From Limimaricola cinnabarinus (GTDB taxonomy: Bacteria > Pseudomonadota > Alphaproteobacteria > Rhodobacterales > Rhodobacteraceae): a stretch of 64,000 nucleotides of DNA. The stretch spans positions 1,362-65,361 of the forward strand of contig NZ_KZ304953.1 in NCBI RefSeq assembly GCF_002723615.1, given 5' to 3'. The notes beneath the pieces were generated by a model that saw nothing but the letters and a program-made list of their open reading frames with translations, made no database searches and was not told where the DNA came from. Below are positions 1 through 42,509 of the stretch, piece after piece. Numbering within the stretch: the first letter of the stretch is position 1; every line of letters begins with the position of its first letter. Made by a program: the position numbers and the translations under genes.

Positions 1-135
1 CATCACTACCGCGTTCGTCAGGCTCGTAAGCTGAAGGGTCGAGACCGTCTCGGAAACGCTCCAGTGGAGCGTTTCAGGTCTCGACGGGCGGAGCCCCGGC
101 GCAGGTTCAAATCCTGCTCCCGCAACCAATCCCCC
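1..135 (+). repeat. tRNA-fMet-derived hairpin repeat, unit 1
   Basis: First copy of a 135-bp direct repeat; it aligns base for base with the next copy starting at 136. Bases 13-35 resemble the anticodon arm of initiator tRNA-Met, but with CGT where CAT is expected. Bases 101-128 match its T-arm, acceptor 3' strand and CCA. Between them sits a hairpin: outer arms 38-46 and 77-85 (9 bp), inner arms 53-63 and 65-75 (11 bp). The 5' half of a tRNA is missing, so this is not a functional tRNA gene. The array may continue to the left of the window. Confidence 0.8.
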
Positions 136-240
136 CATCGCCATTGCGCTCGTCAGGTTCATAACCTGAAGGGTCGAGACCGGCTCGGAAACGCTCCAGT
201 GGAGCGTTTCAGGTCTCGACGGGCAAAGCCCCGGCGCAGG
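136..240 (+). repeat. tRNA-fMet-derived hairpin repeat, unit 2 (left part)
   Basis: Second copy of the repeat, with the anticodon-arm part (CAT anticodon kept) and the same hairpin. It follows unit 1 closely up to GCAGG at 236-240, the first bases of the T-arm, and then the sequence changes completely. The rest of the T-arm and the CCA end are found 11 kb away at 11332-11360. I infer that this copy was split by an insertion. Confidence 0.75.
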
Positions 241-389
241 GGCGACGCCTGCTTCAGATTTGATTCGATCGCCACGCATTAGAAATCCTATAGGAAACTC
301 GGCGACTTCAGAACTTGGCCCCTTCGGATCGAACGGCGCAAGGATGATGCGCGGTTTTGTTCAGCCCCGGTTTCATCGCATGATTGCGA
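241..389. other. Left edge of the inserted region, no gene seen
   Basis: About 150 bp between the broken repeat unit and the end of the SorC-DhaK gene. I see no convincing coding region and no strong terminator hairpin. No target-site duplication can be recognised when this edge is compared with the right edge near 11331. Confidence 0.4.
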
Positions 390-2435
390 TTATGCGTGAT
401 GCCAGGCAGGCGAATGACAGGGATGATCCAACAGGCTTGCCAACTCGTCGTCCAGCAATATCGCTGTGATCGACATGCCGGCCATATCCAGGGACGTGTA
501 GTAGTGACCGATCAAGGTTCGATGCACCATGACACCACGGGCGCGCAGCCGCTGTCTGAGGCGTCGGTTGATGATGTAAAGTTCCATCATCGGCGTGCTG
601 CCGAGCGAATTGACCAAAAGCGCGACCCGATCACCTTCGGCCGGCGCCATTTCCGACAGGATCCGGTCGACAACCAGGTCGGTTGCCTCATCGGCGCCGA
701 CCAGCCTGTCACTGGCGATACCGCGTTCGCCGTGCACCCCGACACCGATCTCCATCTCTTCAGGGCCAATTCGGAAACTGGGGCGGCGCGTTTCGAGGGA
801 CGTGCCCGGTTCAAGGGCGATGCCCATGGTGAAGCACCGTTGCGTCGCACGATTGGCAAGTTCGACGCAGCGCTCCAACGGCAGCATCCGGTCGCATGCG
901 GCACCGGCGATCTTGAAGACGAAGGCATTTCCGGCCACGCCACGCCGCGCTGCGCGCGTCTCAACCGGAGCAGAGGCGATGTCGTCGGTGGTGATGACCG
1001 AGCGCACCGGGATACCCCGTGCGGCGGCCATCTCGGCGGCCATCTCGAAATTCATCACGTCGCCTGAAAAATTGCCGAAGATGTGCAGCACGCCTGCTCC
1101 GCCATCGGCAGCCAGCGTCGCTGCCAGGATCGGATCGGGCGGCGGCGCGGCAAAGACGTTGCCGATGGCGACGGCATCGGCCAGACCGGCCCCGACATAG
1201 CCGAAAAATCCCGGTTCGTGCCCCGATCCGCCGCCGATGACCAAACCCACCTTTCCGGGACGGGGGCCGGTCACGGCTTTCAGCGCGCGCGGCGCGCCTT
1301 CGATGGGGGCCAAGAGCTCGTCATGCGCCAAGACCGCCCCCGCAATCATCTCGCTGACGGCATCCTGGGAGCGATTGAGGAATTTCTTGACCCGCACGCG
1401 CTCGGGCAGGGCGGCAGCTGGCTTGCCGGCGCGCTTGGGGGCGTCGATATCGCGGCCTTCGGAGGCAAGGATCGCGCGGGCCGTATCGGCATCTGTGACC
1501 ATGACGTTGACCAGCCTGCCACGCAGGGCCGCCAGAATGGCCTGTACCTTGTCCATCCCGCCGGCGACACCGATGCGGCAGGGAATCTTGCCCAGGCTGT
1601 CCAGGTCGATGCCGATGGTGCGTGCTTCGAGCGGTCCGTCGACGACCTCGCCCGTGGCCGAAATCAACCGCCCTGCGATGCTGCCTACCGCCGCATTCGC
1701 GTAATCCTGCGCGCTCACCGCGTCGAAGAAACCGCTGCTGTGAATCGTGCTTTCGGGACGCAGCGAAGAGATCCCCAGGATGATGCGGTTCGCCTCGGCC
1801 AGGACCTTCATCTGTCCGGCGATCACCGGTTCGCGCAGCAAGAGCCTGCGCATGTCCGGAGAGGATACGATGGCGGGCGCCGATATCGGAATGCAACGCG
1901 CGCCGAGGGCGTCCGCCAGCGTGGTCGCGCAGGCCTCGGGGGTCCAGGACGTCTTGGCCGTCGTGCCGCCCGTCGCCTGGACGATACGAAGATCCTGCAA
2001 CCCGCCGGGACGGACGCTGTCGGCCATCGACAACACGGTGCGCCCCCAGGTGACCGCGATCGTGTCGCCCGATTGCACCGTCCTGGTCAGAAGCTGCGCC
2101 GCCGCTGCCCCCAACCGGTCTACAAGTGGACTGCCCCCTCCTTCCGAGGGGATCACAAGGCAATCCGACAGGTTGAAATGGTCCTGCAGGCTCTGGGCGA
2201 TGCTGAGGGCGCGAAAGCGATCGGGATCGATCTCGATCGAGACGATGCCCCGCGCCCGCGCATCCGCCAGATAGGCATTGACCGAGGCCCGGGACACGCC
2301 CATCTGCGTCGCGATGTCCCCTTGGGTCATGCCTTCTTCGTAATAGAGCCAAGCCGCCCACAGCAACGGATCTTCGCCGAACCGCAGGGGGCTGCGAACG
2401 GTGCCCCCCACCCGCATCGATTGACCTGCGGTCAT
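390..2435 (-). CDS. SorC-type sugar-binding regulator fused to dihydroxyacetone kinase subunit DhaK
   Basis: A 681-residue two-part protein. Residues about 22-62 form a SorC/DeoR-like helix-turn-helix, and about 75-335 the SorC sugar-phosphate-binding domain (with WGRT near 130). Residues about 348-681 are a complete DhaK domain, with GGGSGHEP at 401-408 and the substrate-binding histidine near 568 in VGVHGERG. DhaK binds the ketose covalently through that histidine; DhaL supplies the nucleotide. The ATG overlaps the stop of the upstream dhaL as ATGA, so the pair is translationally coupled. This start is preferred over open codons further upstream, which lie inside dhaL. It probably represses or activates this operon in response to its own substrate (inference). 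The fusion type exists in databases; its physiology is little characterised to my knowledge. Confidence 0.85.
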   Translation of the reverse strand: MTAGQSMRVGGTVRSPLRFGEDPLLWAAWLYYEEGMTQGDIATQMGVSRASVNAYLADARARGIVSIEIDPDRFRALSIAQSLQDHFNLSDCLVIPSEGGGSPLVDRLGAAAAQLLTRTVQSGDTIAVTWGRTVLSMADSVRPGGLQDLRIVQATGGTTAKTSWTPEACATTLADALGARCIPISAPAIVSSPDMRRLLLREPVIAGQMKVLAEANRIILGISSLRPESTIHSSGFFDAVSAQDYANAAVGSIAGRLISATGEVVDGPLEARTIGIDLDSLGKIPCRIGVAGGMDKVQAILAALRGRLVNVMVTDADTARAILASEGRDIDAPKRAGKPAAALPERVRVKKFLNRSQDAVSEMIAGAVLAHDELLAPIEGAPRALKAVTGPRPGKVGLVIGGGSGHEPGFFGYVGAGLADAVAIGNVFAAPPPDPILAATLAADGGAGVLHIFGNFSGDVMNFEMAAEMAAARGIPVRSVITTDDIASAPVETRAARRGVAGNAFVFKIAGAACDRMLPLERCVELANRATQRCFTMGIALEPGTSLETRRPSFRIGPEEMEIGVGVHGERGIASDRLVGADEATDLVVDRILSEMAPAEGDRVALLVNSLGSTPMMELYIINRRLRQRLRARGVMVHRTLIGHYYTSLDMAGMSITAILLDDELASLLDHPCHSPAWHHA

Positions 2436-3094
2436 GACGAAACCGGGTGCGACCGGACCATGGCCCATTGCGCCATGCTGTCCAGCAGCGCTGCCGCCGA
2501 CGCCGCCCCGGGGTCCAGATGTCCAAGGCTGCGCGGCCCAAGTCGCGCCGCCCGCCCCTTGACCGCCATCATCGCACGGGTTGCCTCGGCACCCTCGGCG
2601 GCAGCCGAGGCTGCATCCTTTAGAATATGCGCGACATCCCGATCCGTTGCCAGACCGGCACGGGCGGCATGGGCCGCAGGGGCCCAAGCGTCGATCATGG
2701 TCTTGTCGCCCGGCTTGCTGGCCCCGCGCAGGGCGATGCCCTCGGACATCGCGATGATCACCTCGGGCAGGCGCGCCAGCGGTATTTCGGTCGTAGCGCC
2801 CAAGGCTTGGGCGGCCCGCATCAGCGCGCTGGCATATAGCGGGCCGGTCGTCGCACCAATCTCGTTCAGCAGTGCGCGGGCGGCCAGCATCATGCCATCG
2901 GCCAGCATCGGCACCGCGGCCTCGTCTTCCGACAGCGCCTTTGCGGCGGCGGCAAAGCCCACCGACATGGCGACCCCGTGATCGGCATCGCCGATCTCGC
3001 CGTCCAGTTCGGCCAGATAATCCTGTTCCTCATCCATGCGCGCGGCAAGGCTGCGGAACAGCGAGGTCAGGTCGTGTCGGGTAAACATCTGCAT
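2432..3094 (-). CDS. dhaL: Dihydroxyacetone kinase subunit DhaL, stand-alone
   Basis: About 220 residues, the usual DhaL length. The nucleotide-binding motif reads GEIGDADHGVAM, near residues 30-41; these aspartates bind Mg-ATP in the family. A later conserved stretch is GDKTMIDAW. No DhaM phosphocarrier is present, so the ATP-using type is likely. It lies 53 bp after the DhaKL fusion gene and overlaps the SorC-DhaK gene by four bases. The likely partner is the DhaK domain of that downstream protein. Start is ATG 3094 or 3088. Confidence 0.85.
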   Translation of the reverse strand: MQMFTRHDLTSLFRSLAARMDEEQDYLAELDGEIGDADHGVAMSVGFAAAAKALSEDEAAVPMLADGMMLAARALLNEIGATTGPLYASALMRAAQALGATTEIPLARLPEVIIAMSEGIALRGASKPGDKTMIDAWAPAAHAARAGLATDRDVAHILKDAASAAAEGAEATRAMMAVKGRAARLGPRSLGHLDPGAASAAALLDSMAQWAMVRSHPVSS

Positions 3095-3147
3095 ATCGAC
3101 GACTATCGGCGCGAAGCCGCGGCGATGCAATGCCGCGGCTTCGCCCA

Positions 3148-4935
3148 TCACGTCCGGGACAGCCGGGTTGCCACGCTGTCCGCCAGCTTCGTCAGGATCA
3201 GCGCGCAAGAGGTCGCGCCCGCATCCAGCACACCGCGCGAGCGTTCCCCAAGTCGGCTGGCACGTCCCAGCCGCGCGACCATGTCGATGGTGCTGTCGCG
3301 GCCTTCCTCGGCCGCCTGCGCCATTGCCATCAGCGCATTCTCGAAGCCGTCGGGGCAGGTGGCCTCATAGGCCGAGATCGCCGGCACCAGGCAGTCGACA
3401 AGGGTCTTGTCGCCCAGTTCGGCAGCGCCCGTGCTCCTGACGCCCTGAAGACCCGCGCGCAGCATGACCCCGAAACCCTCTGCATCGATCGCCTGACGCC
3501 CTTCGATCGCGCGGGCCATGTTGCCGAACATGAACCCATAGAGCGGCCCCATCGACCCACCGATCTCGGTCATCAGCACGTCCGACAGCACCGAAAGCGC
3601 CTCGTCCAGCGTCAGATTCTGACCGGCGATGCGCTCGGCGGCCCGTCCAAAGCCCTTGGCCATGTTGATGCCGTGATCGCCGTCACCGATCAGGCCGTCG
3701 ATCTCGGACAGATAGGCCTTGTTGGCGACGATGACGGATGCCAGATCGGTCACGATGCCGGAGGCCGCGTGCACGTCAAGGCGCGGATCGCTCTCGGCTT
3801 CGGGGGCGCGTTCGATCGTGGCCCCGGCCTTGGCAGCTCCGCTTCGGCGGGGGCGCGGGGCGGATGTCGCGGCGATCGGCTGGACCGGCGCGCCCGACCG
3901 GCTCATCCCCGGTGAGGCGCATTCGACGTCAAGCAGTTCCTTCAGCTCGTCGTCCAGCGCCATGACCGTCAGCGTCGCCCCCACCATTTCGAGCGAAGTG
4001 AAGTAATTGCCGACGAGCGCGCAATGTACCTTCAGGCCCGCGCCCTCCAGCCCGGTCTCAATGCGGTCAAAAAGGACATAAAGCTCGTTGACCGGTGTCG
4101 CGCCCAGACCAGAGACCAGCACCGCGACCTCGGTCCCGGCCTTCAGGTCCTGATCCTCCAGCACGATCCGCAACATGTCGTCGGCGATGTCATCGGCGCG
4201 TTTCAGCGGCTCGACCCGGGCGCCGGGTTCGCCGTGATGGCCGATGCCGACCTCCATCGTGCCGGCGGCGATCTGGAAGTTCGGATGGCCCACCGCCGGA
4301 AGCGTGCAGGGCCCCAAGCCGACGCCGACCGAACGGCAGGCATCGATGGCCTTCTGCGCGGCCGCCTGGACCTGCGCCAGGTCGCCACCAAGCGCCGCGC
4401 GGGCACCGCCGATCTTCCACATGAAGATTTCGCCTGCCACGCCCCGCCGCTTGGCACGCTCGGAGGGCGGGGCCGAACAGACGTCGTCATTGGCGACGAC
4501 CAGCGCCACCTCGATGCCGTCTTCGGCCACCATGTCGCGCGCCATCTTCACGTTCATGTTGTCGCCGGCATAATTGCCGTAAAGCACCGCGACCCCAGCC
4601 CCGCCATCCGCCGCACGGATTGCATCCGCGAAGGCCTGCGCCGTCGGTGACGAGAACAGCTCGCCTACGGCCACGGCATCCACCATGTTGCGCCCGGCAT
4701 AGCCGATGAAGGCGGGTTCGTGGCCCGAACCGCCACCGGTGACGATGCCCACGCGCCCCTCCTGCGGGGCGAAGCGCGACAGCACGACGCGCGGGTTCAT
4801 CGGGTCCTTGCAGACCAGGTCGCCATGCGCCTTGACGAAGCCCGCCACCGTTTCATCGACAATGTCGTCGGGGTCGTTGAAGAACCGCTGCATGGCCAGG
4901 CCGCTCCGGGTATTCACCTCGCTGTTGTCCATCAT
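3148..4935 (-). CDS. Single-chain ketose kinase (DhaK-DhaL fusion, erythrulose/dihydroxyacetone kinase type)
   Basis: 595 residues with DhaK first (about 15-345) and DhaL second (about 385-595), joined by a Pro/Ala/Arg-rich linker. Visible motifs are GGGSGHEP and the histidine loop GIGHHGEPG in DhaK, and IGDGDHGINM in DhaL. One-chain ATP-dependent kinases of this layout phosphorylate dihydroxyacetone or C4 ketoses such as D- or L-erythrulose. The ATG overlaps the stop of the upstream SDR as ATGA. A second candidate start is 4893, at MQRFFNDPDD, where many homologues begin. Substrate is inferred from neighbours only. Confidence 0.85.
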   Translation of the reverse strand: MMDNSEVNTRSGLAMQRFFNDPDDIVDETVAGFVKAHGDLVCKDPMNPRVVLSRFAPQEGRVGIVTGGGSGHEPAFIGYAGRNMVDAVAVGELFSSPTAQAFADAIRAADGGAGVAVLYGNYAGDNMNVKMARDMVAEDGIEVALVVANDDVCSAPPSERAKRRGVAGEIFMWKIGGARAALGGDLAQVQAAAQKAIDACRSVGVGLGPCTLPAVGHPNFQIAAGTMEVGIGHHGEPGARVEPLKRADDIADDMLRIVLEDQDLKAGTEVAVLVSGLGATPVNELYVLFDRIETGLEGAGLKVHCALVGNYFTSLEMVGATLTVMALDDELKELLDVECASPGMSRSGAPVQPIAATSAPRPRRSGAAKAGATIERAPEAESDPRLDVHAASGIVTDLASVIVANKAYLSEIDGLIGDGDHGINMAKGFGRAAERIAGQNLTLDEALSVLSDVLMTEIGGSMGPLYGFMFGNMARAIEGRQAIDAEGFGVMLRAGLQGVRSTGAAELGDKTLVDCLVPAISAYEATCPDGFENALMAMAQAAEEGRDSTIDMVARLGRASRLGERSRGVLDAGATSCALILTKLADSVATRLSRT

Positions 4936-5690
4936 CTCACCGTATATCCGCCATCGACCAGAAGGTCGGCGCCATTGATCATCGCTGCCGCGTCCGAGGC
5001 CAGAAATACCGCCGCCGCCGCGATCTCATCGGGCTCGGCAAAACGGCCGACCGGGATCTGCGCCTTCATCGCGTCGCCCTTGGAGCCCGCCCAAGCCTTG
5101 CGGCCCAGTTCGGTCATCACCACTGTCGGAGAGATGGCGTTGACCGTGATGCCATGCCGGCCCCATTCCAGCGCCAGCGTCTTGGTGACGCCCAGAATGC
5201 CGAATTTTGCCGCGCAATAGGCCACATGCCCCTCGATCGCGACAGAACCCGCCTGGCTGGCCAGGTTGATGATCCGCCCGCCCTTGCCTGCCGCGATCAT
5301 GACGCGACCCACGGCCTGCGCCATGGCGAAGCTGCCGGTCAAGTTGATGTCGATGGTGCGCGTCCATGCCTGGCCCGAGAGATCCTCGGCCGGGGCCAGA
5401 TCCACGATCCCGGCCGAGTTCACCAGGATGTCGATGCCGCCGAAGGCCTCGGTGGCATGTGCGATGGCGGATGCGATGCTGTCTGCGTCGGTCACGTCGC
5501 AGGAAAAGGCACGGGCCTCGCCGGGCAAATCCTCTGCCAGCTGCTCCGCGCTCTCAAGGTTCATGTCCAGCAAGACGATCCTCGCGCCCTGCTGCGAAAA
5601 TGCCTGCGCGATCGCCGCGCCGATCCCCGAGGCGCCCCCCGTGACGACGGCCGTCCTGCCCGCCAGGGAAAAGTCCAGTGAAGCTGCCAT
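4932..5690 (-). CDS. SDR-family polyol/sugar dehydrogenase
   Basis: 252-residue classical short-chain dehydrogenase. It has the NAD(P) motif TGGASGIG near residue 17, NSAG, catalytic serine in NLASQAG and the Tyr/Lys pair in YCAAKFG. The C-terminal DGGYTVR is typical. A GAGGATCGCT ribosome site precedes ATG 5690. It sits between the binding-protein gene and the kinase, in the order polyol dehydrogenase then ketose kinase. D-threitol or another C4/C5 polyol is a reasonable substrate guess; the sequence alone does not decide it. Confidence 0.8.
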   Translation of the reverse strand: MAASLDFSLAGRTAVVTGGASGIGAAIAQAFSQQGARIVLLDMNLESAEQLAEDLPGEARAFSCDVTDADSIASAIAHATEAFGGIDILVNSAGIVDLAPAEDLSGQAWTRTIDINLTGSFAMAQAVGRVMIAAGKGGRIINLASQAGSVAIEGHVAYCAAKFGILGVTKTLALEWGRHGITVNAISPTVVMTELGRKAWAGSKGDAMKAQIPVGRFAEPDEIAAAAVFLASDAAAMINGADLLVDGGYTVR

Positions 5691-5777
5691 AGCGATCCTC
5701 TGTCTGACATGGGACCATCCCCGCCCAAGCGGCTTGCGCGGCGGCAGGGATGATCCGGGAGTGCGTTCCGTGAGTGG

Positions 5778-5802
5778 CCCCCGGCGCCCGTGGGCGCCGG
5801 GG
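5778..5802 (-). promoter_or_regulatory. Intercistronic GC stem-loop after the binding-protein gene
   Basis: Stem of 11 bp (5779-5789 with 5792-5802) between the binding-protein gene and the SDR gene, without a following T-run. Such stems often protect the 3' end of binding-protein mRNA or partly terminate, giving more binding protein than downstream enzymes. The role here is inferred. Confidence 0.5.
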
Positions 5803-5818
5803 AGGGTTTCGGACGGAC

Positions 5819-6811
5819 TTACTGGCGCGCGGCCAGCAGCGCGTCGACGTTCTCGGCCGTAACCGGGGTCCAGGGGACGTTGTATTCGCTGTCGGCACCG
5901 CCATTCCACGGCATGTCAGGATACTGCTTCCAGATGTCGGACATCGGCTCGTAATCGGGGCGGACGGCTTTGATGGCGACGTCGATGGCGCCAAGTGCCT
6001 GCGCCTCGCCATCCTGAAGGATGGAATCCATGCGGCCTTCCTTGACCGCGTTCAGCGCGTCGGTCACGCCGTCCACGCCCGCGATGGCGAAATTGTCGAC
6101 ATCCATGCCCGCGGCACGGATCGCCTCGATCGCACCCAGGGCCATTTCATCGTTCTGCGCGATGACGCCGCGGATGTCATTGCCATGCGAGGTCAGCCAG
6201 TTTTCCATCAGGCTCTGCGCCTCGGCGCGCGACCAGTTGGCGGTCTGGCGCTCCAGGATCTCGACGTCGGGGCATTCGGCCAGGGCTTTTTCGTTGCCCT
6301 CACCGCGCTGGATCTCTCCGGACTGGCCGATGGGGCCTTCGATGATGACGACGTCACCTTCGCAGTTCATCTTGTCCAGGACCGCCTTGGCCTCCAGATA
6401 GCCCGCTTCGACATCGTCCGACCCGACATAAGAGGTCAGCTGATCGCTGTTCACCCGCGCGTTCGAACCGACAACCGGAATGCCCGCCTCGACCGCCAGC
6501 TGGACCGCCGTGGCACCCGCTTCGACATCCATCGGAGCAAAGACGATCGCGTCATAACCTTGGGTGATCATCGTCTCGAACTGATCCTGCTGGACCAGGG
6601 CATCATAACGGCCATCAAAGACCGTCAGTTCGACCATGCCCGACTGGACGGCGGGATGCTTCTCGCCGGCAGCCGACCACAGCTGCATGAATTCGGCGTT
6701 CAGGCCATAGGCGGCCATGCCGATCTTGACCGGATCGTCCTGCGCATGGACGGCTCCCGCCCCCAGCCCCAAGGCAAGCATGCTGGCCGTCATCATCATC
6801 TTCGGTGTCAT
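5819..6811 (-). CDS. Ribose-type ABC transporter, periplasmic sugar/polyol-binding protein
   Basis: 330 residues with a Sec signal peptide ending near residue 23 (VHAQ). The mature part is a Peripla_BP_4 fold of the RbsB/XylF kind. It shows GYDAIVFAPMD, the hinge region GSNARVNSDQ, NDEMALGAIEA and GVDGVTDAL. It captures the substrate in the periplasm for the permease and ATPase encoded just upstream. GGAGGACACCAC precedes ATG 6811. Substrate unknown; the surrounding dehydrogenases and kinases point to a polyol or ketose. Confidence 0.88.
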   Translation of the reverse strand: MTPKMMMTASMLALGLGAGAVHAQDDPVKIGMAAYGLNAEFMQLWSAAGEKHPAVQSGMVELTVFDGRYDALVQQDQFETMITQGYDAIVFAPMDVEAGATAVQLAVEAGIPVVGSNARVNSDQLTSYVGSDDVEAGYLEAKAVLDKMNCEGDVVIIEGPIGQSGEIQRGEGNEKALAECPDVEILERQTANWSRAEAQSLMENWLTSHGNDIRGVIAQNDEMALGAIEAIRAAGMDVDNFAIAGVDGVTDALNAVKEGRMDSILQDGEAQALGAIDVAIKAVRPDYEPMSDIWKQYPDMPWNGGADSEYNVPWTPVTAENVDALLAARQ

Positions 6812-6863
6812 GTGGTGTCCTCCCTTTATGACATTCTCTTCGAGACCTGATGCCGGTTCGGCA

Positions 6864-7886
6864 TCAGTCCTCGGATTTCCGCGAACGGTCCAGCAGCACG
6901 GCCGCGACGATCAGCCCGCCCTTGATGACCTGCTGGTAGTAGGATTCGACCCCCATCAGATCGAGCCCGTTGTTCATCACCCCGATCAGCAGCGCGCCGA
7001 TCACCGTGCCGCTGACACGGCCGATACCGCCTGCCAGGCTGGTGCCGCCGATGACCACGGCCGCGATGGCATCAAGCTCGTAGGCGACGCCGGCCTGCGG
7101 CAAAGCCGACCCGGTGCGGCCCGCCAGGATCATCCCCGCGACCCCCGCCAGCGCCCCGGAAATGGCATAGACCGCAAAACGGATGCGACGGACGGGCAGA
7201 CCCGAAACCTTGGCCGCATGCGGGTTGCCGCCCACGGCATAGACATGGCGGCCAAACCGCGTCTGGGTCAGGACGAAATGCGCCAGCACGAAGACCAGGC
7301 CGAACAGGATGATCGGCACCGGAATGCCCGCGATGTCGCCCGTCCCGATCCAGCGATAGCCGTCGGTCAGCGCAGGCACGGGCCGCCCGCCCGAATAGAT
7401 CAGCGTCAGACCGCGCGCCGCCGATAGCATGCCAAGCGTCGCCACGAAGGCCGGAACGGAAAACCGCGCCACCATCGTGCCCGACACGGCCCCGACGGCG
7501 GTTCCCGTCGCAAGTCCCATCACCACCGCGATCAGCGGCATGTAAGGTGATCCGATCACCCCCGCCGTGCTGGTCGTGGCGAAGCTGGCCGAGACGACCC
7601 CCACCAGCGCCACGACCGAGCCGACCGACAGGTCGATCCCGCGCGTCAGGATGACGAAGGTCATGCCGATCGCCAGGATGCCGTTGATCGAGGTCTGGCG
7701 CAGCACGTTGATGATGTTGCGCTGGCTGAGGAAATTTTCGTTCACCGCGGCCAGAACGACGCATAGCAGGATCAGCGCGATCAGGATGCCGTATCGCTGT
7801 GCCAATGGGCCGATGCGCGTCGTGATCGAGCGCGACTGCTCGGTTCCTGTCCCGGCCGGCGTGGCGGCTTCGATCTGCTTTTCCAA
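6864..7886 (-). CDS. Ribose-type ABC transporter permease
   Basis: 340 residues of the RbsC/AraH family (BPD_transp_2) with about eight to ten hydrophobic segments. Conserved stretches include LTRGIDLSVGS, PAFVATLGML and AVVIGGTSLAGG. The start codon is TTG, chosen because GGGAGGAT lies at the right distance and no ATG occurs near. The protein would dimerise in the inner membrane and pair with the ATPase encoded 62 bp upstream and the binding protein downstream. Confidence 0.88.
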   Translation of the reverse strand: MEKQIEAATPAGTGTEQSRSITTRIGPLAQRYGILIALILLCVVLAAVNENFLSQRNIINVLRQTSINGILAIGMTFVILTRGIDLSVGSVVALVGVVSASFATTSTAGVIGSPYMPLIAVVMGLATGTAVGAVSGTMVARFSVPAFVATLGMLSAARGLTLIYSGGRPVPALTDGYRWIGTGDIAGIPVPIILFGLVFVLAHFVLTQTRFGRHVYAVGGNPHAAKVSGLPVRRIRFAVYAISGALAGVAGMILAGRTGSALPQAGVAYELDAIAAVVIGGTSLAGGIGRVSGTVIGALLIGVMNNGLDLMGVESYYQQVIKGGLIVAAVLLDRSRKSED

Positions 7887-7948
7887 CTTGATCCTCCCTT
7901 TCGTGCATCATGCGCCGCGCAGCCGCCCGCATGGGGCGCGCCGCGCTC

Positions 7949-9430
7949 TCAGGCTGCCAGATGCAACAATCTCTCCGCGGACAATTCCGCCCGCTGCAAT
8001 TCCCCGGCCACGCGGCCGTCGCGCATGACGACGGCGCGGTCGGCCATGCCCAGAACTTCGTCCGTCTCGGACGAGATCATGATGACGGCGCCTCCGGCCC
8101 GCGTGAAATCTGACATGACGCGATAGATCTCTCGCTTGGCGCCCACATCGACACCGCGCGTCGGCTCGTCCAGCAACAGGATGCGCGGTTCGGTCAGAAA
8201 CCACTTGCCCAGAACGACCTTCTGCTGGTTGCCGCCCGACAGGTTGGATACCGATAGCTTGTCCGAGGCGGTCTTGATGTTCAGCGTCTCGATCATGCGC
8301 TGCGCCGCGTCGCGTTCAGCGCCCACGCGCATCAACTGGCCGCTGGACACGCGGTCCAGCGTCGCAAGGCACAGGTTGTCGCGGACATCCCCTGTCAGGA
8401 CCAGGCCCGAATGCTTGCGGTCTTCGGTGACATAGGCCAGCCCCGCAGCGATCGCCTGGTTCGGCGTGTCGATCCGCGTGGCTGTTCCTTCGATCACGAT
8501 CTCACCGCCTGCGGTGTCCGACAGGCCGAACAGGCGATCGAAGATCTCGGTCCGGCCCGATCCCATCAGACCGTAAAGTGCCAGAATTTCGCCGCGCCTG
8601 ACGGCGAAGTTCACGTCACGGACGCCGTGATCGGCGCTCAGATTGCGCACGGACAGCATTTCCTCGCCGCCCGGCTCGTTCTCCTTGACGAATTCCTCGG
8701 TCAGCGGACGGCCCACGACCAGATGGATCAGGCGATCCTTGTCGATAGTGTCCATCGCCCCGGTCTCGACGAAGGCCCCGTCGCGGAACACGGTATAGCT
8801 GTCGCAGATCGAGAAGATTTCGGACAGGCGGTGGCTGACATAGATGACGCCCTTGCCCCGTGCCGTCAGGGTCTTGATGGCGGCGAACAACTGATCCGCC
8901 TCGGCCTCGCCCAAGGCTGAGGTCGGTTCGTCCATGATGATGATCTCGGCATCATAGCTCAGCGCCTTGGCAATCTCGACCAGCTGGACCTGCGCCACGG
9001 TCAGGTCCATCATCAGGCTGTCCGCACGGATGCCGAAATGGAAGCCGTCCAGCAGCTCCTGCGCCATGTGGTTCAGGTCGCCAAAGCGCACGCGGCCGAA
9101 CAGGCCCACCGGCTCGCGCCCCAGATAGATGTTCTCAGCCACGGTCATCGCCGGAACCGGGCTCAACTCCTGCTCGATGATCGAGATGCCGTTGGCAAGG
9201 GCCTGCGAAGGGCTCTCGAAAGTCATCGGCTTGCCGTCGCGCAGCAGCGTGCCGGCATCACGATGATGAATGCCCATCAGGATCTTCAGGAAGGTGGACT
9301 TGCCGGCACCATTGCCACCGCAAAGCGCATGGACCGAGCCGGGGTGCAACACGAAGCGGCCATCGCGCAGGGCCGGAACGCCCCCGAAGGATTTGCGAAA
9401 GCCCGTGGCCTCCAGCAGCGGTTGTTCCAT
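7949..9430 (-). CDS. Ribose-type ABC transporter ATP-binding protein (two ATPase domains)
   Basis: 493 residues with two tandem ABC domains, as in RbsA. The first has Walker A GGNGAGKST and Walker B IIIMDEPTSAL, with a weak signature (DLTVAQVQLVEIAKAL). The second has a degenerate Walker A (GLMGSGRTE) but a good signature LSGGNQQKV and Walker B ILLLDEPTRGVD. This asymmetry is normal for the family. GGGGGAGGAAT precedes ATG 9430, so the longer in-frame extension upstream is not needed. First gene of the minus-strand operon, transcribed from the regulatory region at 9470-9550. Confidence 0.9.
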   Translation of the reverse strand: MEQPLLEATGFRKSFGGVPALRDGRFVLHPGSVHALCGGNGAGKSTFLKILMGIHHRDAGTLLRDGKPMTFESPSQALANGISIIEQELSPVPAMTVAENIYLGREPVGLFGRVRFGDLNHMAQELLDGFHFGIRADSLMMDLTVAQVQLVEIAKALSYDAEIIIMDEPTSALGEAEADQLFAAIKTLTARGKGVIYVSHRLSEIFSICDSYTVFRDGAFVETGAMDTIDKDRLIHLVVGRPLTEEFVKENEPGGEEMLSVRNLSADHGVRDVNFAVRRGEILALYGLMGSGRTEIFDRLFGLSDTAGGEIVIEGTATRIDTPNQAIAAGLAYVTEDRKHSGLVLTGDVRDNLCLATLDRVSSGQLMRVGAERDAAQRMIETLNIKTASDKLSVSNLSGGNQQKVVLGKWFLTEPRILLLDEPTRGVDVGAKREIYRVMSDFTRAGGAVIMISSETDEVLGMADRAVVMRDGRVAGELQRAELSAERLLHLAA

Positions 9431-9472
9431 GATTCCTCCCCCTACGCACGGCCCTTCCCCAGGCAGTACAAA

Positions 9473-9491
9473 TGTCAGGCATGACCTGACA
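9473..9491. promoter_or_regulatory. Palindromic operator candidate
   Basis: TGTCAGG and CCTGACA separated by five bases form a perfect-arm palindrome. It lies about seven bases downstream of a -10-like hexamer for the ABC operon, so a bound protein would cover the transcription start. Further TGTCA half-sites lie at 9522 and 9543. The operon's own SorC-DhaK protein is the obvious candidate binder (inference). Confidence 0.55.
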
Positions 9492-9497
9492 AATAGC

Positions 9498-9527
9498 AGG
9501 CTAGAAGATCGTTCCGACATCTGTCAA
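9498..9527 (-). promoter_or_regulatory. Sigma70-type promoter candidate of the ABC/kinase operon
   Basis: On the minus strand TTGACA (9527-9522) is a perfect -35 box. It is followed after 18 bases by TAGCCT (9503-9498), a weak -10. The operator palindrome lies just beyond. The operon's first start codon is about 70 bases downstream. Confidence 0.5.
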
Positions 9528-9801
9528 CTGCTATCGGTCATTTGTCAGAAATGCCGTATCAACTTGGCCGCGTCGGTCCGCGGCAAGCTTTGGCCCCCGG
9601 TGCGGCTGTCGCGGCAGCAGTGCTTGGAAAAAATGCCACGCCGACCGGTCTTGGAGCGGCTTCGGCCCCGCCATCTCGGCAGTGACGCCGTGATTTTTCG
9701 GGCCCGCGCAAATGTCGGAGACCTTTACAGCTTGCCCCGGCTGACGTCGTATGCGCCCGCCGGCAGACCGATTGCCGCCAAGCATCCAAGGGAGAGGCAA
9801 G

Positions 9802-10842
9802 ATGCCGAGATCGCTGGTTCTGGAGCGAAAAGGAGAGCTGTCGCTGCGGGATATTCCGTTGGACATGGACATGGGGCCGACCGATGTCCGCATCCGGGTT
9901 CACACCGTGGGTATCTGCGGGTCCGACGTGCATTACTATACCCATGGCAAGATCGGGCCCTTCGTCGTCAACGAACCGATGGTTCTAGGTCATGAAGCCT
10001 CGGGCGTGGTGATCGAGGTCGGTGCGCAGGTCCGTCACCTGAAGGAGGGTGATCGCGTCTGCATGGAGCCGGGCATTCCCGACCCCGCCTCGCGCGCGGC
10101 CAAGCTGGGCATCTACAACGTTGATCCCGCGGTGACCTTCTGGGCGACGCCTCCCGTGCATGGCTGCCTTACGCCGCAGGTCGTTCACCCGGCAGCCTAT
10201 ACCTACAAGCTGCCCGACAATGTCTCTTTCGCCGAAGGGGCAATGGTCGAGCCCTTCGCGATCGGCATGCAGGCCGCGCTGCGTGCGCGCATCCAGCCCG
10301 GCGACGTGGGGATGGTGCTGGGCGCGGGCCCCATCGGCATGATGACGGCGCTGGCGGCCCTGGCCGGGGGATGCGCCAAGGTCCTGGTGGCCGACCTGGC
10401 CCAGCGCAAGCTGGACATCATCGGCGCCTATCCCGGCATTGAGACGATCAACATCCGCGACATTCCCGCGGCGGATGCCATCGCCGAAGCGACCGAAGGC
10501 TGGGGTGCGGATGTTGTCTTCGAATGCTCGGGCGCGGCACCGGCCGTCCTGGGCCTGCCGCAACTGGTGCGTCCGGGCGGGACCGCCGTGCTGGTCGGCA
10601 TGCCGGTCGATCCGGTGCCCATGGACATCGTCGGCCTGCAAGCCAAGGAATTGCGCCTCGAAACGGTCTTCCGCTACGCCAATGTCTATGACCGCGCCAT
10701 CGCGCTGATCGGGACGGGCAAGGTGGACCTGAAGCCGCTGATCTCGCTCAGCATGCCCTTCGAGGACAGCATCGCGGCCTTTGAACGTGCCGCAGAAGGG
10801 CGCGAGACTGACGTCAAGATGCAGATCGAGATGCCCAGCTGA
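9802..10842 (+). CDS. Zinc-dependent polyol dehydrogenase (xylitol/sorbitol/threitol type)
   Basis: 346 residues of the medium-chain dehydrogenase family. Catalytic-zinc ligands are visible in [10 protein letters not shown] and LGHEASG. The NAD motif is GAGPIG, near residue 182. The loop that usually holds four structural-zinc cysteines ([15 protein letters not shown]) has none, as in some alphaproteobacterial xylitol dehydrogenases. GGGAGAGG precedes ATG 9802; upstream in-frame codons have no such site. It is transcribed away from the transporter operon and probably shares its regulator. It would oxidise the polyol to a ketose for the kinases. Confidence 0.85.
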
Positions 10843-11014
10843 TCGACCGAACCGGACGCTCGACGGGGATATCGGTGACGGATGACCTGTCATAGCCCTG
10901 CTTGGTGCCGGAGTGGCAGCAATGAAGGTTGACCGTCGGTGGGCTGGAGATCGGCCGAAATGGTCTCAAATGCATGGCTCCGAGGTCGAGTGGCCCGGTT
11001 CTCGATGAAACGAG
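10843..11014. other. Non-coding stretch downstream of the dehydrogenase
   Basis: No recognisable gene. It leads into degraded transposase sequence and is part of the decayed right flank of the island. Confidence 0.35.
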
Positions 11015-11105
11015 GGGGGTAGTCTGCCATTTTCGCCAGATGAGTTGCGCCGGCGTTAGCCCCTTGAACGCCTTCAATCGGCTTTGATGATGGGTTTGGT
11101 CATCG
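11015..11105 (-). pseudogene. Remnant of an IS481-like transposase C-terminus
   Basis: The minus-strand translation reads RLKAFKGLTPAQLIWRKW, very like the conserved C-terminal end of IS481-type DDE transposases (RLKTLKGLTPYE...). The catalytic core and inverted repeats are not found. It is therefore a fragment of a dead insertion sequence at the right end of the island. Confidence 0.6.
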
Positions 11106-11159
11106 GGGTCATTCCTCGGTTCAGGTCGGCTTTCGTAACCCGACCCCACCGGGAAACCC

Positions 11160-11273
11160 GATGGCCGCCTCAGCTACACAACGCCCCGGGACAGGACCGG
11201 AATGCTGTCGCCCCCCGAGTTCGAGCGGCAGCAGAAACCGAGGCACGAGGGCGTCCGAGCAACGCGGGGCTAT
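11160..11273 (+). pseudogene. Remnant of an IS3-like transposase (OrfB) C-terminus
   Basis: The plus-strand frame through ATG 11202 reads MLSPPEFERQQ followed by EGVRATRGYS, resembling the tail of IS3-family OrfB proteins (LSPxEFE...). Upstream residues no longer match an integrase core and no element ends are visible. Second dead transposase piece next to the repeat remnant. Confidence 0.45.
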
Positions 11274-11331
11274 TCACTACCGGGCTACTGTTGGGCGCGA
11301 AACGCGCAACCTACCGGCCATACGTGTCTCG

Positions 11332-11360
11332 TCAAATCCTGCTCCCGCAACCAAACCCCA
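11332..11360 (+). repeat. tRNA-fMet-derived repeat, right part of a split unit
   Basis: Matches positions 108-135 of repeat unit 1: the second half of the T-arm, the acceptor 3' strand, CCA and the spacer. It complements the left part that stops at 240; joining the two restores a whole unit with one base missing. Confidence 0.75.
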
Positions 11361-11431
11361 CATCGACACCGCGCCCTTCAGGCTCGTAACCTGAAGGGTC
11401 GAGACCATCTCGGAAACGCTCCGGTGGAGCG
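11361..11431 (+). repeat. tRNA-fMet-derived hairpin repeat, truncated unit 3
   Basis: Starts with the same CATCG spacer and anticodon-arm segment (CGT in place of CAT). It continues through the first half of the hairpin (inner arm GAAACGCTCCG) and stops matching after GGTGGAGCG. It lies in tandem with the preceding partial unit, so it belongs to the same array as 1-240. Confidence 0.7.
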
Positions 11432-11606
11432 GCTCCGAATGACCCGCATGAGCGTCGTCTCGCCCCCCTTTCTCGATACGCTTCCGCATCTGTTGATCGC
11501 CCGTGTTCTGGGCGCGATGGGGATCCGGCCCATATATGGGGAGGGGGCGTTGATCTCCGCAGCATCTCCTCCGCGCGTTTCCGGTTCTGCGGAAAAGGAG
11601 GTTACG

Positions 11607-11918
11607 ATGTTCAAACGTCTCGTGACCGCGGCGCTTTTGTCGGGAATGGCGGCGACGGCTCCGCCAGCCGCTGCGATGGGCTGTGCGCCGCGCGATCATA
11701 TCGTGGAGCGCCTGAAAGACCGCTACCTGGAAGCGCCGACCGCCGCCGGGTTGGAGACCACCTCCGAGACGCGGCAAAGGATGCTCGAGATCTGGTCCAA
11801 CCCCGAGAATGGCAGCTACACCGTGCTGCTCACCGATCCGACGGGCATCAGCTGCATCGTGGGATACGGGTCGGAATTCCGGGTGCTCGAAGCGCCGCCG
11901 AAAGGCGAGCTGGGCTGA
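11607..11918 (+). CDS. Small exported protein of unknown function
   Basis: 103 residues starting at ATG 11607 after a strong AAAAGGAGG site. Residues 1-23 look like a Sec signal peptide ending in an Ala-rich stretch. The mature part has two cysteines and no domain I recognise; the C-terminal half (TVLLTDPTGISCIVGYG) resembles small periplasmic proteins described only as hypothetical. The long in-frame extension upstream runs through the repeat remnant and is not believable as coding. Confidence 0.6.
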   Translation: MFKRLVTAALLSGMAATAPPAAAMGCAPRDHIVERLKDRYLEAPTAAGLETTSETRQRMLEIWSNPENGSYTVLLTDPTGISCIVGYGSEFRVLEAPPKGELG

Positions 11919-11984
11919 TCCGCTCGGGCGTGGCCGCCTCGACGCCGCCCGCCGGACCGGCGAGCGGACCGCCGAAGGCGCGGT

Positions 11985-12659
11985 TCAGCCGGTCGGCATG
12001 ATGAACATCTCGCGCAGGTCCGAGGTTTCGGACTGGTCGAGCGCGAAGACCACCGCCCGGGCGATGTCCTCGGGCTGGATCTTGTCTGGCTTGGGCTCGG
12101 AGAAGAAGGGCGTGTCGACCATGCCCGGCGCGATCACCGTGCAGCGCCCGCCCCAGTCGCGCATCTCCTCGCTCATATTGCCCGCATAGCCATGCACGAA
12201 CCATTTCGTCGCGCCATAGATCGAGCCCGCGATGTGCCGCTTGCCCGCCGCCGAGCCGGTGAGCACCAGATGGCCGCGGCGCTTCTTCAGCTCGGGCAGG
12301 GCCACGCGGGCGGTGTAGAGCAGCGCCATGATGTTGAGGTCGATCATGCGGCGCCATTCCTCCGGGTCGCCCTCGACCGTGCCGGGCGTGTCGAGCCCGG
12401 TGCCAGCATTGGCGAAGGCCGCATCGAGCCCGCCCTTGGCTTCCACGAGCCGGGCCACGGCGCGCTCCTGTGCCGCGAGATCGGTGGCGTCGCCCGGCAG
12501 GGCCAGGGCCCGGTCGCCCAGCTCGGCGGCGAGCGCATCGAGCTTGTCGGCGCTGCGGGCCATCAGCCCGACATGCCAGCCCGCCGCCACGGCGGCGCGG
12601 GCGGTGGCGGCGCCGATGCCCGAGGAGGCGCCGGTGATGAAGAGAACGCGGTCCGTCAT
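11985..12659 (-). CDS. SDR-family oxidoreductase
   Basis: 224-residue short-chain dehydrogenase close to the YdfG/serine-dehydrogenase group. It has TGASSGIG at about residue 9, NAGTG, GSAAGKRHIAG with the catalytic serine and Tyr/Lys in YGATKWF. The C-terminal MFIMPTG matches that subgroup. ATG 12659 follows GGAGACC; codons further upstream are not needed. It heads away from xdhC with about 105 bp between. Substrate unknown. Confidence 0.75.
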   Translation of the reverse strand: MTDRVLFITGASSGIGAATARAAVAAGWHVGLMARSADKLDALAAELGDRALALPGDATDLAAQERAVARLVEAKGGLDAAFANAGTGLDTPGTVEGDPEEWRRMIDLNIMALLYTARVALPELKKRRGHLVLTGSAAGKRHIAGSIYGATKWFVHGYAGNMSEEMRDWGGRCTVIAPGMVDTPFFSEPKPDKIQPEDIARAVVFALDQSETSDLREMFIMPTG

Positions 12660-12764
12660 GAGGGTCTCCTGTGGTTCGGCCTGTGCCTGAGGTGGCCCTT
12701 CGGCGCGGCGAAGCAAGGGGAGCGGTCCGGCCGACCCTTGCCGCCGGGCGCGCTTCGGGAGGGC

Positions 12765-13607
12765 CTACTGCGTGGCGGCGACGATCTCGGCCAGCACCGA
12801 AACGGCGAGCACGCGCGGATCGCGGCTGTTCTTGATCAGGCCGATCGGCCCGCGCACCCGGGCAAGCGCCGCATCGTCCCAACCGGTCGCGCGCAGCGTA
12901 TCGAGCCTGCGCGCCTGCGCCGTGCGGCTGCCTTGCGCGCCGATCCAGAAGGCGGGCGAGCGCAGCGCCGCGTCGAGGATATCCGTTTCGCGCTCATGCT
13001 CGTGAAAGAACAGCACCACGGCGGTCGCGGCATCGACATCCCCGGGCGCGAGCCCGTCGCGCCGTTCGGTCGGATAGCCCGCGGCCTGCGCCAGCCGCGC
13101 GAAGGCCGCGGCTTCGGGGCCGGTGCCGATCACCGCCATGCGCGGGTCGGGGCGGATCTCCAGCTTCGGCAGCTTTGGCAGGGAAAGCCGCGCCGGGCGG
13201 CGGGCGCGCAGATCGGCGAGCGGCCCGTCGAGCGCCGCGCCGGGTGCGACGGGGACGAGCGCCACGTCGAGCCCGCTGCCGCAGGGCAGGCGGATGTCGA
13301 GATAGGGCGAGCCGCGCCCGTAGCGCAGCTGCCGGGGCCTGCCTTCGGCCAGGACTTCGGCGGCATGCAGCGCGAGGTCGCCCTCGATGCAGCCCGAGGA
13401 GAGGCTGCCCACCGGCGCGCCGCCCTCGGGAAAGGCCATGACCGCCCCCAACGGGCGGTAGAAGGCGCCATCGATCCCGACCAGCATTGTCAGCACCCCG
13501 CCGTTTTCGGACAAGGCGGCAAGGGCCGGTTCGACCTCGGAAGCGGTCAGCGCGAAGGCCGTGTCAGCCGGGGCCGAGGCCTCTGCCGACACGGCGTCCT
13601 GCGTCAT
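12765..13607 (-). CDS. XdhC/CoxI-family molybdenum cofactor maturation protein
   Basis: 280 residues. The N-terminal XdhC_CoxI domain has SLSSGCIEGDL, and the C-terminal half is a Rossmann domain (VIGTGPEAAAF). XdhC proteins bind and sulfurate the molybdenum cofactor and hand it to xanthine-dehydrogenase-family enzymes. Here the client is most likely the divergent IorAB enzyme. A GTG at 13634 is an alternative start and lies only five bases after the cytochrome gene; neither has a clear ribosome site. Probably co-transcribed with the cytochrome c gene. Confidence 0.8.
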   Translation of the reverse strand: MTQDAVSAEASAPADTAFALTASEVEPALAALSENGGVLTMLVGIDGAFYRPLGAVMAFPEGGAPVGSLSSGCIEGDLALHAAEVLAEGRPRQLRYGRGSPYLDIRLPCGSGLDVALVPVAPGAALDGPLADLRARRPARLSLPKLPKLEIRPDPRMAVIGTGPEAAAFARLAQAAGYPTERRDGLAPGDVDAATAVVLFFHEHERETDILDAALRSPAFWIGAQGSRTAQARRLDTLRATGWDDAALARVRGPIGLIKNSRDPRVLAVSVLAEIVAATQ

Positions 13608-13639
13608 GTCGACCGAAGAGGGGTGATGACCCACCGGGC

Positions 13640-14236
13640 TCAGTTCGCCGTCTCGGTTTCGGTCTCGCCCGTCATGTCGTCCATGGAGTGATCCATCTCA
13701 TCCATGTCGCCCATCGCGGCGTCGCCTTCGGCCATCTCGTCGCCCATCTCGAAATCGGGGCTGAAGGTCGCGAGATAGGCGTAGAGATCGGCCGCGACCT
13801 GCTCGTCGCGCACCTTGTAGGCCATCTTCGAGCGGGCGCGCCGGTCATCGAGCGCCTCGCGCAGGAAGGCGGTCGGGTCCTGCAGATAGGCCATGGTGTT
13901 CTCGGGGCCCCAGACCACGGTCTCGAACTGTTCCCCGGTCGGCGCCGTCCCGGTCAGGTCCTCCTCGGGGGCAAGCTCGCCGTAAGCCACGATCGCGTCG
14001 CTGTAGCGGAAATCCTCCACCGCGCCGGGGGCGCGACCGACCACGCCGTGCAGGTTCGGGCCGATCCGGCCATTGCGCCCGGCGATCACTTCGCCGCTCT
14101 CATCGGCGATCACGTGGCAGCTCACGCATTGCCGCGCGAATTCGGATTCACCATTGGCGGCATCGCCGTTCATCTCCTGCGCAAAGGCGGGAGCGGCGAG
14201 CAGGGTGCTGGTGGCAAGGGCGGTAAAGAGTTTCAT
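13640..14236 (-). CDS. Periplasmic cytochrome c with Met/Asp-rich tail
   Basis: 198 residues: signal peptide 1-20, one haem site CVSCH near 37-41, and a likely distal Met in RSKMAYKV. The fold length fits class I cytochromes of the c2/c550 type. The C-terminus (about 165-198) is an unusual run of Met, Asp, Glu and a His (DEMDHSMDDM). Divergent from iorAB across 236 bp, so it is a plausible electron acceptor for that enzyme. The tail could bind metal (copper?), which is inference. Confidence 0.85.
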   Translation of the reverse strand: MKLFTALATSTLLAAPAFAQEMNGDAANGESEFARQCVSCHVIADESGEVIAGRNGRIGPNLHGVVGRAPGAVEDFRYSDAIVAYGELAPEEDLTGTAPTGEQFETVVWGPENTMAYLQDPTAFLREALDDRRARSKMAYKVRDEQVAADLYAYLATFSPDFEMGDEMAEGDAAMGDMDEMDHSMDDMTGETETETAN

Positions 14237-42263: not shown

Positions 42264-42509
42264 GGCGGTCCTTTCCGACCGTTGCGTCAGTCCCGGCGCA
42301 CAATGCGGAACGGCGCCCGTGGGCGCAACGCGCTGACGGACGGCGATCCCCGATATGGGCCGGGGACCGGAAAGCGAAAGCTTCCGGGTTTGGGGGCCGC
42401 AGTTACGTCGGATCGCCCCGGGCGTCAAGAGCGGGAGCGAGAGCGCGGCGCGGCTTGGAGCCGGCGGCGATGCACCCTAGAAGGGGGCTCCATCCGCGAG
42501 GAGAGCCAC

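Follow-up and report, generated by a model that had tools for sequence, protein, structure and literature searches.

How did pieces of an initiator tRNA gene (tRNA-fMet) come to stand in tandem, each unit carrying a long hairpin between its tRNA parts? This question is raised by the first lines of a stretch of DNA from Limimaricola cinnabarinus, here called the window, which comprises 64,000 nucleotides (G000:C3:1362-65361, i.e. contig C3 of the genome G000 of 3.80 Mb and 67 contigs). We conclude that the units are probably truncated tRNA-fMet copies that carry a dispersed palindromic repeat and were multiplied by recombination at the tRNA ends they have in common. Each unit would derive from a duplicate, truncated on its 5' side, of the tRNA-fMet gene at the end of rRNA operons, and a 62-nt palindromic repeat would interrupt the variable-loop region of this duplicate.

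Anatomy of the units in the window

Units 1 and 2 start at window positions 17 and 152 with a period of 135 bp. The order of parts is a copy of the tRNA-fMet anticodon arm, the long hairpin and a small GGGC/GCCC hairpin, followed in copy 1 by the T arm and the CCA end (Table 1). With copy 2 (window 121-245) as query, copy 1 was found with 93% identity over 95 bases (E = 1.7e-34) and copy 3 with 86% over 86 bases (E = 9.4e-23). The original prediction had described a 135-bp repeat in three copies that keeps both the anticodon arm and the T-arm/CCA end. The tandem pair is indeed as described, but copy 3, at 11.4 kb, retains the anticodon arm and only the 5' half of the hairpin and scores far below the other two; likewise, the tRNA parts are kept in copy 1, but copy 2 has an altered T arm and no CCA end and reads GCAGGGGCGACGCCTGCTT, followed by unrelated DNA. 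The 48-base hairpin differs in a single base between copies 1 and 2 (GTCTCGG/GGCTCGG) and the anticodon is CGT in one and CAT in the other, in agreement with the earlier statement that the hairpin is nearly unchanged while the anticodon varies. Copy 1 directly adjoins a run of 205 N (C3:1157-1361) and its left end is out of view; since the first base of the window comes right after this gap, the array is possibly longer.

The units are not tRNA genes. They do not have the acceptor and D arms and the closed cloverleaf, and ARAGORN recognised no tRNA in the window nor over the units of loci L009-L013. At the gathering score, Rfam recognised neither a tRNA anywhere in the window nor any family at its units; in L009-L012 it gave nothing beyond intact tRNA and 5S rRNA. 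The array on L009 was not reported by Tandem Repeats Finder. Copy 1 folds into an imperfect anticodon arm, the long hairpin, the small GGGC/GCCC hairpin and a T arm (-51.1 kcal/mol, z = -3.07); for two units from other species z was -1.47 (equalled by 19 of 200 shuffles) and -2.50.

Table 1 Parts of the tRNA-fMet/palindrome units in the window. R2 is a 64-position covariance model.
Feature	Position	Strand	Basis
Unit 1, tRNA-fMet anticodon-arm copy, anticodon CGT	17-37	+	sequence, fold
Unit 1, copy of the Rhodobacteraceae palindromic element	34-97	+	model R2, 77.5 bits
Unit 1, copy of tRNA-fMet T arm and CCA end	98-128	+	sequence
Spacer between unit 1 and the anticodon arm of unit 2	129-151	+	sequence
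Unit 2, tRNA-fMet anticodon-arm copy, anticodon CAT	152-172	+	sequence
Unit 2, copy of the palindromic element	169-232	+	model R2, 68 bits
Unit 2, altered T arm (loop GGCGACG), CCA end gone; variant common to the last units of C7 and C32	233-254	+	
22-nt tRNA-fMet 3' end without 5' part; reads as a junction from insertion or rearrangement	11332-11353	+	
Unit 3, anticodon-arm copy	11377-11397	+	
Unit 3, damaged palindromic element, only 5' half intact	11395-11459	+	model R2, 18.5 bits

Units behind tRNA-fMet in Limimaricola

Contig C3 starts with a 5S rRNA gene (17-131), an intact tRNA-fMet (320-396) and a unit that ends at 530. An IS66-like insertion (HTH_Tnp_1 and TnpB_IS66, the latter just at the cut-off) follows, then the gap and then the units of the window. 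About 1 kb to the left of the window there is thus an intact tRNA-fMet immediately followed by a unit, the very arrangement that, according to the original prediction, would speak for simple local duplication. The same genome has a second tRNA-fMet behind 5S rRNA, on C52, without a unit. Two units on C32 follow a relaxase-like gene (Mob_Pre) and a tRNA 3' end with no 5' part before it, and C7 opens with one unit, its left side being out of view. In L009 (279-303) and L012 (2882-2906), a second fragment of the tRNA-fMet anticodon arm is present between 5S rRNA and the intact tRNA-fMet.

The units of this genome fall into two groups. Among those with unrelated DNA behind them (C3, C7, C32) identity is 96.2-100%, among the other three it is 95.5-96.4%, and between the groups 87.6-91.3%. 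Because the likeness between loci is position-specific, blocks of the array were copied or converted between flanks and not amplified separately. Since the tRNA 3' end is repeated at the close of the chimera, neighbouring units and the flanks of rRNA operons share direct repeats. Position-specific likeness is expected of homologous recombination between such shared tRNA ends, which we take to be the probable process, but an integrase could yield the same products.

Units are present in four of the eight Limimaricola genomes (G000, G002, G003, G005), and G004 has a remnant of 76% identity. In the three other species G002, G003 and G005 they lie immediately behind tRNA-fMet; two further arrays of G002 begin at contig ends, and units in tandem are seen in the window, on C32 and on G002:C6. 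Wherever the left side is visible, a unit follows the tRNA-fMet that ends an rRNA operon or a bare tRNA-fMet 3' end. Whole units have been gained or lost exactly behind the tRNA: G005:C21 and G005:C20 have the tRNA and the downstream sequence in common and differ by the unit, and the sequence behind the unit of G003:C114 is that directly behind the tRNA in the unit-less G006:C111, a shared flank that was read from separate listings and that global alignment fails to line up. Such presence and absence speaks for local duplication and recombination. Other tRNA-fMet genes of unit-bearing genomes (G000:C52, G005:C20, G003:C43) are not followed by a unit. On G003:C43, an anticodon-arm remnant without palindrome lies behind tRNA-fMet (L045:2206-2226, minus strand).

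In the genus, model R2 found 16 copies in five of the eight genomes at E 0.01 and none in G001, G006 and G007. Fourteen are in tRNA units, one is in an IS3-like sequence (G005:C20:4335) and one, weak, is unplaced (G004:C12). All 14 strong, tRNA-containing copies are preceded by tRNA-fMet, a bare tRNA 3' end (C32), the gap or a further unit, or belong to arrays that are cut off by a contig end. The units had been proposed to be a small non-autonomous element that copies itself by its tRNA-like end. The exact borders of whole-unit gain and loss, and the CCA-bearing tRNA 3' end in which unit 1 and others terminate, would fit such an element, but the places of the 14 copies and the position of the copies of other genera, which lie away from tRNAs save for one at 263 bp, make it very improbable. 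A mobile, tRNA-containing unit was rejected as the principal explanation since none was found at an unrelated place in the eight genomes and since matches of a model of the whole unit elsewhere in the family (model R1, below) are palindromes without tRNA halves or, among the weak ones, only tRNA parts. That the structure is an artefact of collapsed rRNA repeats is hardly credible: several contigs start or stop inside an rRNA operon or an array and the window starts at the 205-N gap, but the same structure is seen in independent assemblies of other species and is internal on a contig of 1.02 Mb (G002:C7:63 kb).

Contig G003:C16 carries tRNA-fMet, a unit and then the downstream gene that also follows copy 3 in the window. 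Copy 3 therefore most likely once stood behind tRNA-fMet, and other DNA came between; genes for Dak1/Dak2, a short-chain dehydrogenase/reductase (SDR) and a sugar transporter are now found to its left. The 22-nt tRNA end in front of copy 3 looks like the junction. Some units may later have been separated from the tRNA, either by DNA inserted at its 3' end or through rearrangement between the flanks of rRNA operons, which would account for copy 3. Four junctions (C32, window 11332, G005:C20:408.8 kb and G004:C14:103.4 kb) carry a bare tRNA-fMet 3' end and look like remnants of attachment sites; in this weak form the earlier suggestion of a recombination site survives. A tyrosine recombinase acting at tRNA-fMet 3' ends could move the 135-bp unit as a minimal, cis-mobilised cassette. 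Copies of the tRNA 3' end do border the units and bare ends do mark these junctions, but an identical outcome is predicted for homologous recombination between these repeats, and we regard integrase cassettes as unlikely.

The palindrome in Rhodobacteraceae

The hairpin of the units is a copy of a 62-nt palindrome, GGGGTGAGSSC-CGTCTYG-GAANNNNTCC-NNN-GGANNNNTTC-A-GSSCGAACGGGCGGAGCCC. For its distribution, 295 genomes of the family, nearly one per genus, were sampled. Model R1, a covariance model built on 13 units, matched 120 of them at E 0.001, with only 12 candidates per genome being scored; the matches elsewhere in the family were palindromes without tRNA halves, apart from some weak ones that were tRNA parts alone (e.g. 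G000:C3:282-396 and G000:C52). Model R2 (17 candidates scored per genome in this search) matched 120 of the 295 at E 1e-5. In a class-wide draw it matched 6 of 385 genomes, four of the same family and two, weakly, of other families. A strict pattern with one mismatch allowed was found in 42 of the 295 genomes and, read backward as a control, in none.

At 29 loci from other genera the hairpin is shared and the tRNA halves are not. No tRNA is present in the 3 kb of 28 of these loci, the exception being a tRNA-Gly at about 240 bases from the match. Among 125 copies only three have a tRNA at 300 bp or less: the tRNA-fMet units L167 and L223 (G002:C7 coordinates) and the copy with tRNA-Gly at 263 bp. 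In 20 of these 29 loci, Rfam at the gathering score had no family at the copies; one flavin mononucleotide (FMN) riboswitch and one tRNA were hit elsewhere in them.

A scan of named genomes gave at least 118 stretches. Among 80 of these, two were of another order (L185, a metagenome-assembled genome (MAG) of Rhizobiales, and L219, a MAG of Burkholderiaceae) and the rest had Rhodobacterales or unspecific names. One scan of viral contigs gave 19 stretches; with a single copy as query, the element was not found in a phage collection. In a plasmid collection one copy as query gave 54 records at E 0.01, nearly all Rhodobacterales by name, and similar copies are present on a plasmid of Rhodobacter capsulatus SB 1003 (79% identity) and in Ruegeria. 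A sea-water plasmid recorded as Bacillus velezensis (NZ_CP061940.1) has an element of 81% identity (L314:801-864). The copy-rich genome G201 (L115-L124) has 52 pattern matches in 2.2 Mb, many near contig ends, and at G155:C1:2318397-2318617 (L131) four copies form a 63-bp tandem.

The palindrome consists of a two-part stem (9 + 10 positions) with a loop of 3 nt, CGTCTYG entering an internal bulge, and the extra GGGC/GCCC hairpin. The outer stem has tandem G.A/A.G in 71 of 98 copies and is fully paired in most Limimaricola units. The inner stem of 10 bp begins with G-C, then A-T, A-T; these pairs are partly set by the search pattern in alignment A3 and are the same in most pattern-free matches. 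The inner stem is followed by an A and the outer stem, and a CCA tail is absent. CGTCTYG lies beside the inner stem and its first C pairs with the G after TTCA; it is invariant in A3 because the pattern required it, and it is kept in most copies found without the pattern. The conserved block reaches from -11 to +50 around CGTC (132 distinct copies of 144 matches), outside of which conservation is at most about 0.35 bits per base, except for three half-conserved bases (CGG) at the right. L173 and L189, from two different genomes, appear to share the gene end that precedes the element, and the stem differs between them in both of its arms (CAG/CTG versus CGG/CCG).

Covariation was determined over 98 copies (of 106 listed) and the 14 pairs not fixed by the search pattern. 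Standard pairs were present in 93.6% of the cells versus 70.4% after shuffling, and 271 cells had double changes versus 74 (standard deviation 6) in the shuffles. When the partners were slid by 1-3 columns, at most 44.5% standard pairs and 53 double-change cells remained. This, together with the position of the other-genus copies, supports the earlier proposal that the hairpin and not the tRNA is what is kept. For a selection on the RNA strand, G.U and A.C cells were compared over the 14 pairs: 37 versus 26 (p = 0.21). The long hairpin alone has 32 versus 12 and the small hairpin 5 versus 14, the exclusion of the latter being a choice made after seeing the data.

Could the hairpin then be a working part of the rRNA transcript, in 3' processing, stability or termination? 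In G005 it is placed between tRNA-fMet and the downstream sequence, copy 1 folds more strongly than its shuffles, and pairing is kept in two stem types. The 13 units alone have three pairs with double changes, but these look like one inherited change and 310 of 500 shuffles match that number. Furthermore, there is no unit behind three of the tRNA-fMet genes and no R2 copy in three of the genomes, as described above, and no U run follows the hairpin. Such a role is distinctly improbable. A terminator was rejected for the lack of a U run: in alignments A1 and A3 there is no T run behind the hairpin, and no intrinsic terminator is listed at the unit in one unit-bearing flank (L035:100-500). On the explanation preferred here, the unit would be co-transcribed with the rRNA operon and would have no essential role.

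Filled and empty sites in IS3-family elements

The palindrome is present or absent at one place of insertion sequences (IS) of the IS3 family. At the presumed orfA end, the empty form has ...GGGA-AACTTCTGAGCCC (with AACTACTAAGCCC in the case of Roseivivax) and is found in elements carried by plasmids of Neorhizobium, Pseudomonas hygromyciniae, Methylobacterium and Roseivivax. The filled form reads ...GGGA-GTGAG...GGAGCCCC, followed by TAAGCCC, TGAGCCC or TAGGCCC, in seven copies at seven loci (L125, L126, L127, L129, L168, L174, L200), three of them from one genome. Exceptions are a further L125 copy without the right border, L187 without the left side, and L282 of Paracoccus saliphilus, which has other DNA there. 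Filled and empty forms differ by net 54 nt, a multiple of three, and the borders agree with those of the conserved block. This comparison shows an insertion, or a precise loss, of the palindrome and does not reveal its mover. In several genera (L125-L127, L129, L168, L174, L200, L292) the palindrome is at the presumed orfA/orfB junction. The region of this junction is the usual frameshift site of IS3 elements.

The other surroundings are diverse. In a naive survey of open reading frames (ORFs), 85 copies were classified and 40 near contig ends left out. Forty-three of the 85 are within some ORF of at least 100 amino acids (aa), many of which are probably spurious, and in nine the stop codon of the upstream ORF is the TGA of GGGGTGA. 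Three Ruegeria plasmids (L304, L305 and L306, each at 1501-1564) have the element between gcvH and gcvP, antisense to the operon. One copy is within the 3' end of a dTDP-glucose dehydratase gene. For seven of the eight plasmid copies whose surroundings were inspected first, no gene is listed under the match, the gene table being incomplete. Parts of the palindrome match, in antisense, the 5' portion of DUF6330 genes (L312:801-844, L313:333-375), and this protein family may contain a stretch derived from the element.

Origin of the units

We return to the proposal that a truncated tRNA-fMet copy acquired the palindrome and was multiplied by recombination. The palindrome would have been inserted into the tRNA duplicate. 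Several observations weigh against the proposal. Nowhere was the palindrome seen in the variable loop of a complete tRNA duplicate, and the ancestral step is thus unseen. A target duplication was not recognised at the IS3 junction and none is discernible at the tRNA. There are two stem types in the genus, the TCGAGACC and the CCAAGGCC class, which could reflect two insertions or selection on the hairpin in place. A tRNA-integrated island would carry the tRNA 3' end again at its far end, together with an integrase gene; at copy 3 there is the 22-nt repeat, and no integrase was recognised among 10 scanned ORFs (of 44 ORFs of at least 120 aa in window 1-14000; three of the 10 have no Pfam family). 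The DNA just left of copy 3 is 95% identical to G003:C122 and G001:C69, and since it is also present there, it may be ordinary chromosomal DNA moved by rearrangement and not an island. Finally, contigs C7, G002:C6 and G002:C3 start or stop inside an array, which, together with the 205-N gap, limits the map.

Relation to known repeats

The arrangement of the units resembles the rtT repeats of the E. coli tyrT operon, a tandem series downstream of a tRNA gene in which every unit repeats the 3' end of the tRNA. As in rtT, tandem units stand directly behind a tRNA gene and end in a tRNA 3' end; unit length, tRNA and sequence differ. The rtT unit is not known to hold a dispersed palindrome. Palindromic elements of Rickettsia are known for their in-gene habit, and the palindrome, inside reading frames of IS3-family elements with its net 54 nt, is like them in habit but in another host group.

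Repetitive extragenic palindromes (REPs) and REPINs moved by a REP-associated tyrosine transposase (RAYT; Y1_Tnp, PF01797) are likewise palindromic, often in single copies, and both intergenic and intragenic, but our palindrome is without the GTAG tag. Y1_Tnp had no match in G000 nor in the copy-rich genomes G117, G201 and G227. Over the sample it is present in 30 of 295 genomes, in 8 of the 42 positive for the strict pattern versus 22 of the 253 others (Fisher p = 0.052). The Y1_Tnp gene expected of REP/REPIN with RAYT, in the same genome and flanked by the repeat, is thus lacking in G000. RAYT was rejected as the mover, given this weak association and its lack in G000 and the three copy-rich genomes.

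Among REPs, the palindrome most resembles the CGTC-tagged ones, which according to the text of Di Nocera et al. 2013 (PMC3733652) are found mainly in alpha-proteobacteria without an associated transposase and have stems of 8-9 bp with, almost always, two A-T pairs first, loops of 4-5 nt and mostly a CCA tail; the same text equates two Rickettsia palindromic elements with them. In common with that description, ours is a short dispersed palindrome with some copies in genes and no transposase tied to it. A CGTC motif lies beside its stem as well, but the motif of these REPs (CGTC, or TGTC/CCTC) is unpaired at one end of the stem, and the first C of ours is paired. Unlike it, ours has a two-part stem (9 + 10), a loop of 3, the extra GGGC/GCCC hairpin and 62 nt in all; neither the stem (8-9 bp, two A-T pairs first) nor the loop and tail (4-5 nt, CCA) given in that text was found. 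The HRC-8-4 motif of Rhodobacterales, as its text (PMC8632094) presents it, is also structured and limited to the same order, but our palindrome is dispersed; an identity of the two was rejected since locus and structure differ in that account. We found no description of the palindrome in the literature searched, figures and supplements aside (Figure 2 of PMC3733652 could hold a Rhodobacterales entry).

In a part of the window without relation to the units, Rfam matched the ffh small RNA family (RF01793) at 42306-42357 on the minus strand with 65 bits.

Significance

The tandem units themselves are most likely a curiosity of the genus. Of greater interest is the palindrome, a repeat with clear borders and strong covariation that is present in 120 of the 295 genomes sampled from a well-studied family. 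It is tempting to speculate, though tentatively and with more doubt than confidence, that it is a structured element, not described before, that occurs throughout Rhodobacteraceae and has its own job, either as an RNA hairpin or as a single-strand DNA substrate in transposition. As RNA, it would act at gene ends and intercistronic junctions, and the tandem G.A motif and the CGTCTYG bulge might contact a protein or the ribosome. As DNA, it would be the single-strand substrate of some enzyme and would by this route also have entered IS3 elements and tRNA-fMet. If the palindrome has such a job, its insertion would be on record in the Limimaricola arrays. It is also a test case for the spread of palindromic repeats without an obvious transposase, with natural filled and empty sites in IS3-family elements and behind rRNA operons and with workable copies in Rhodobacter capsulatus SB 1003 and Ruegeria.
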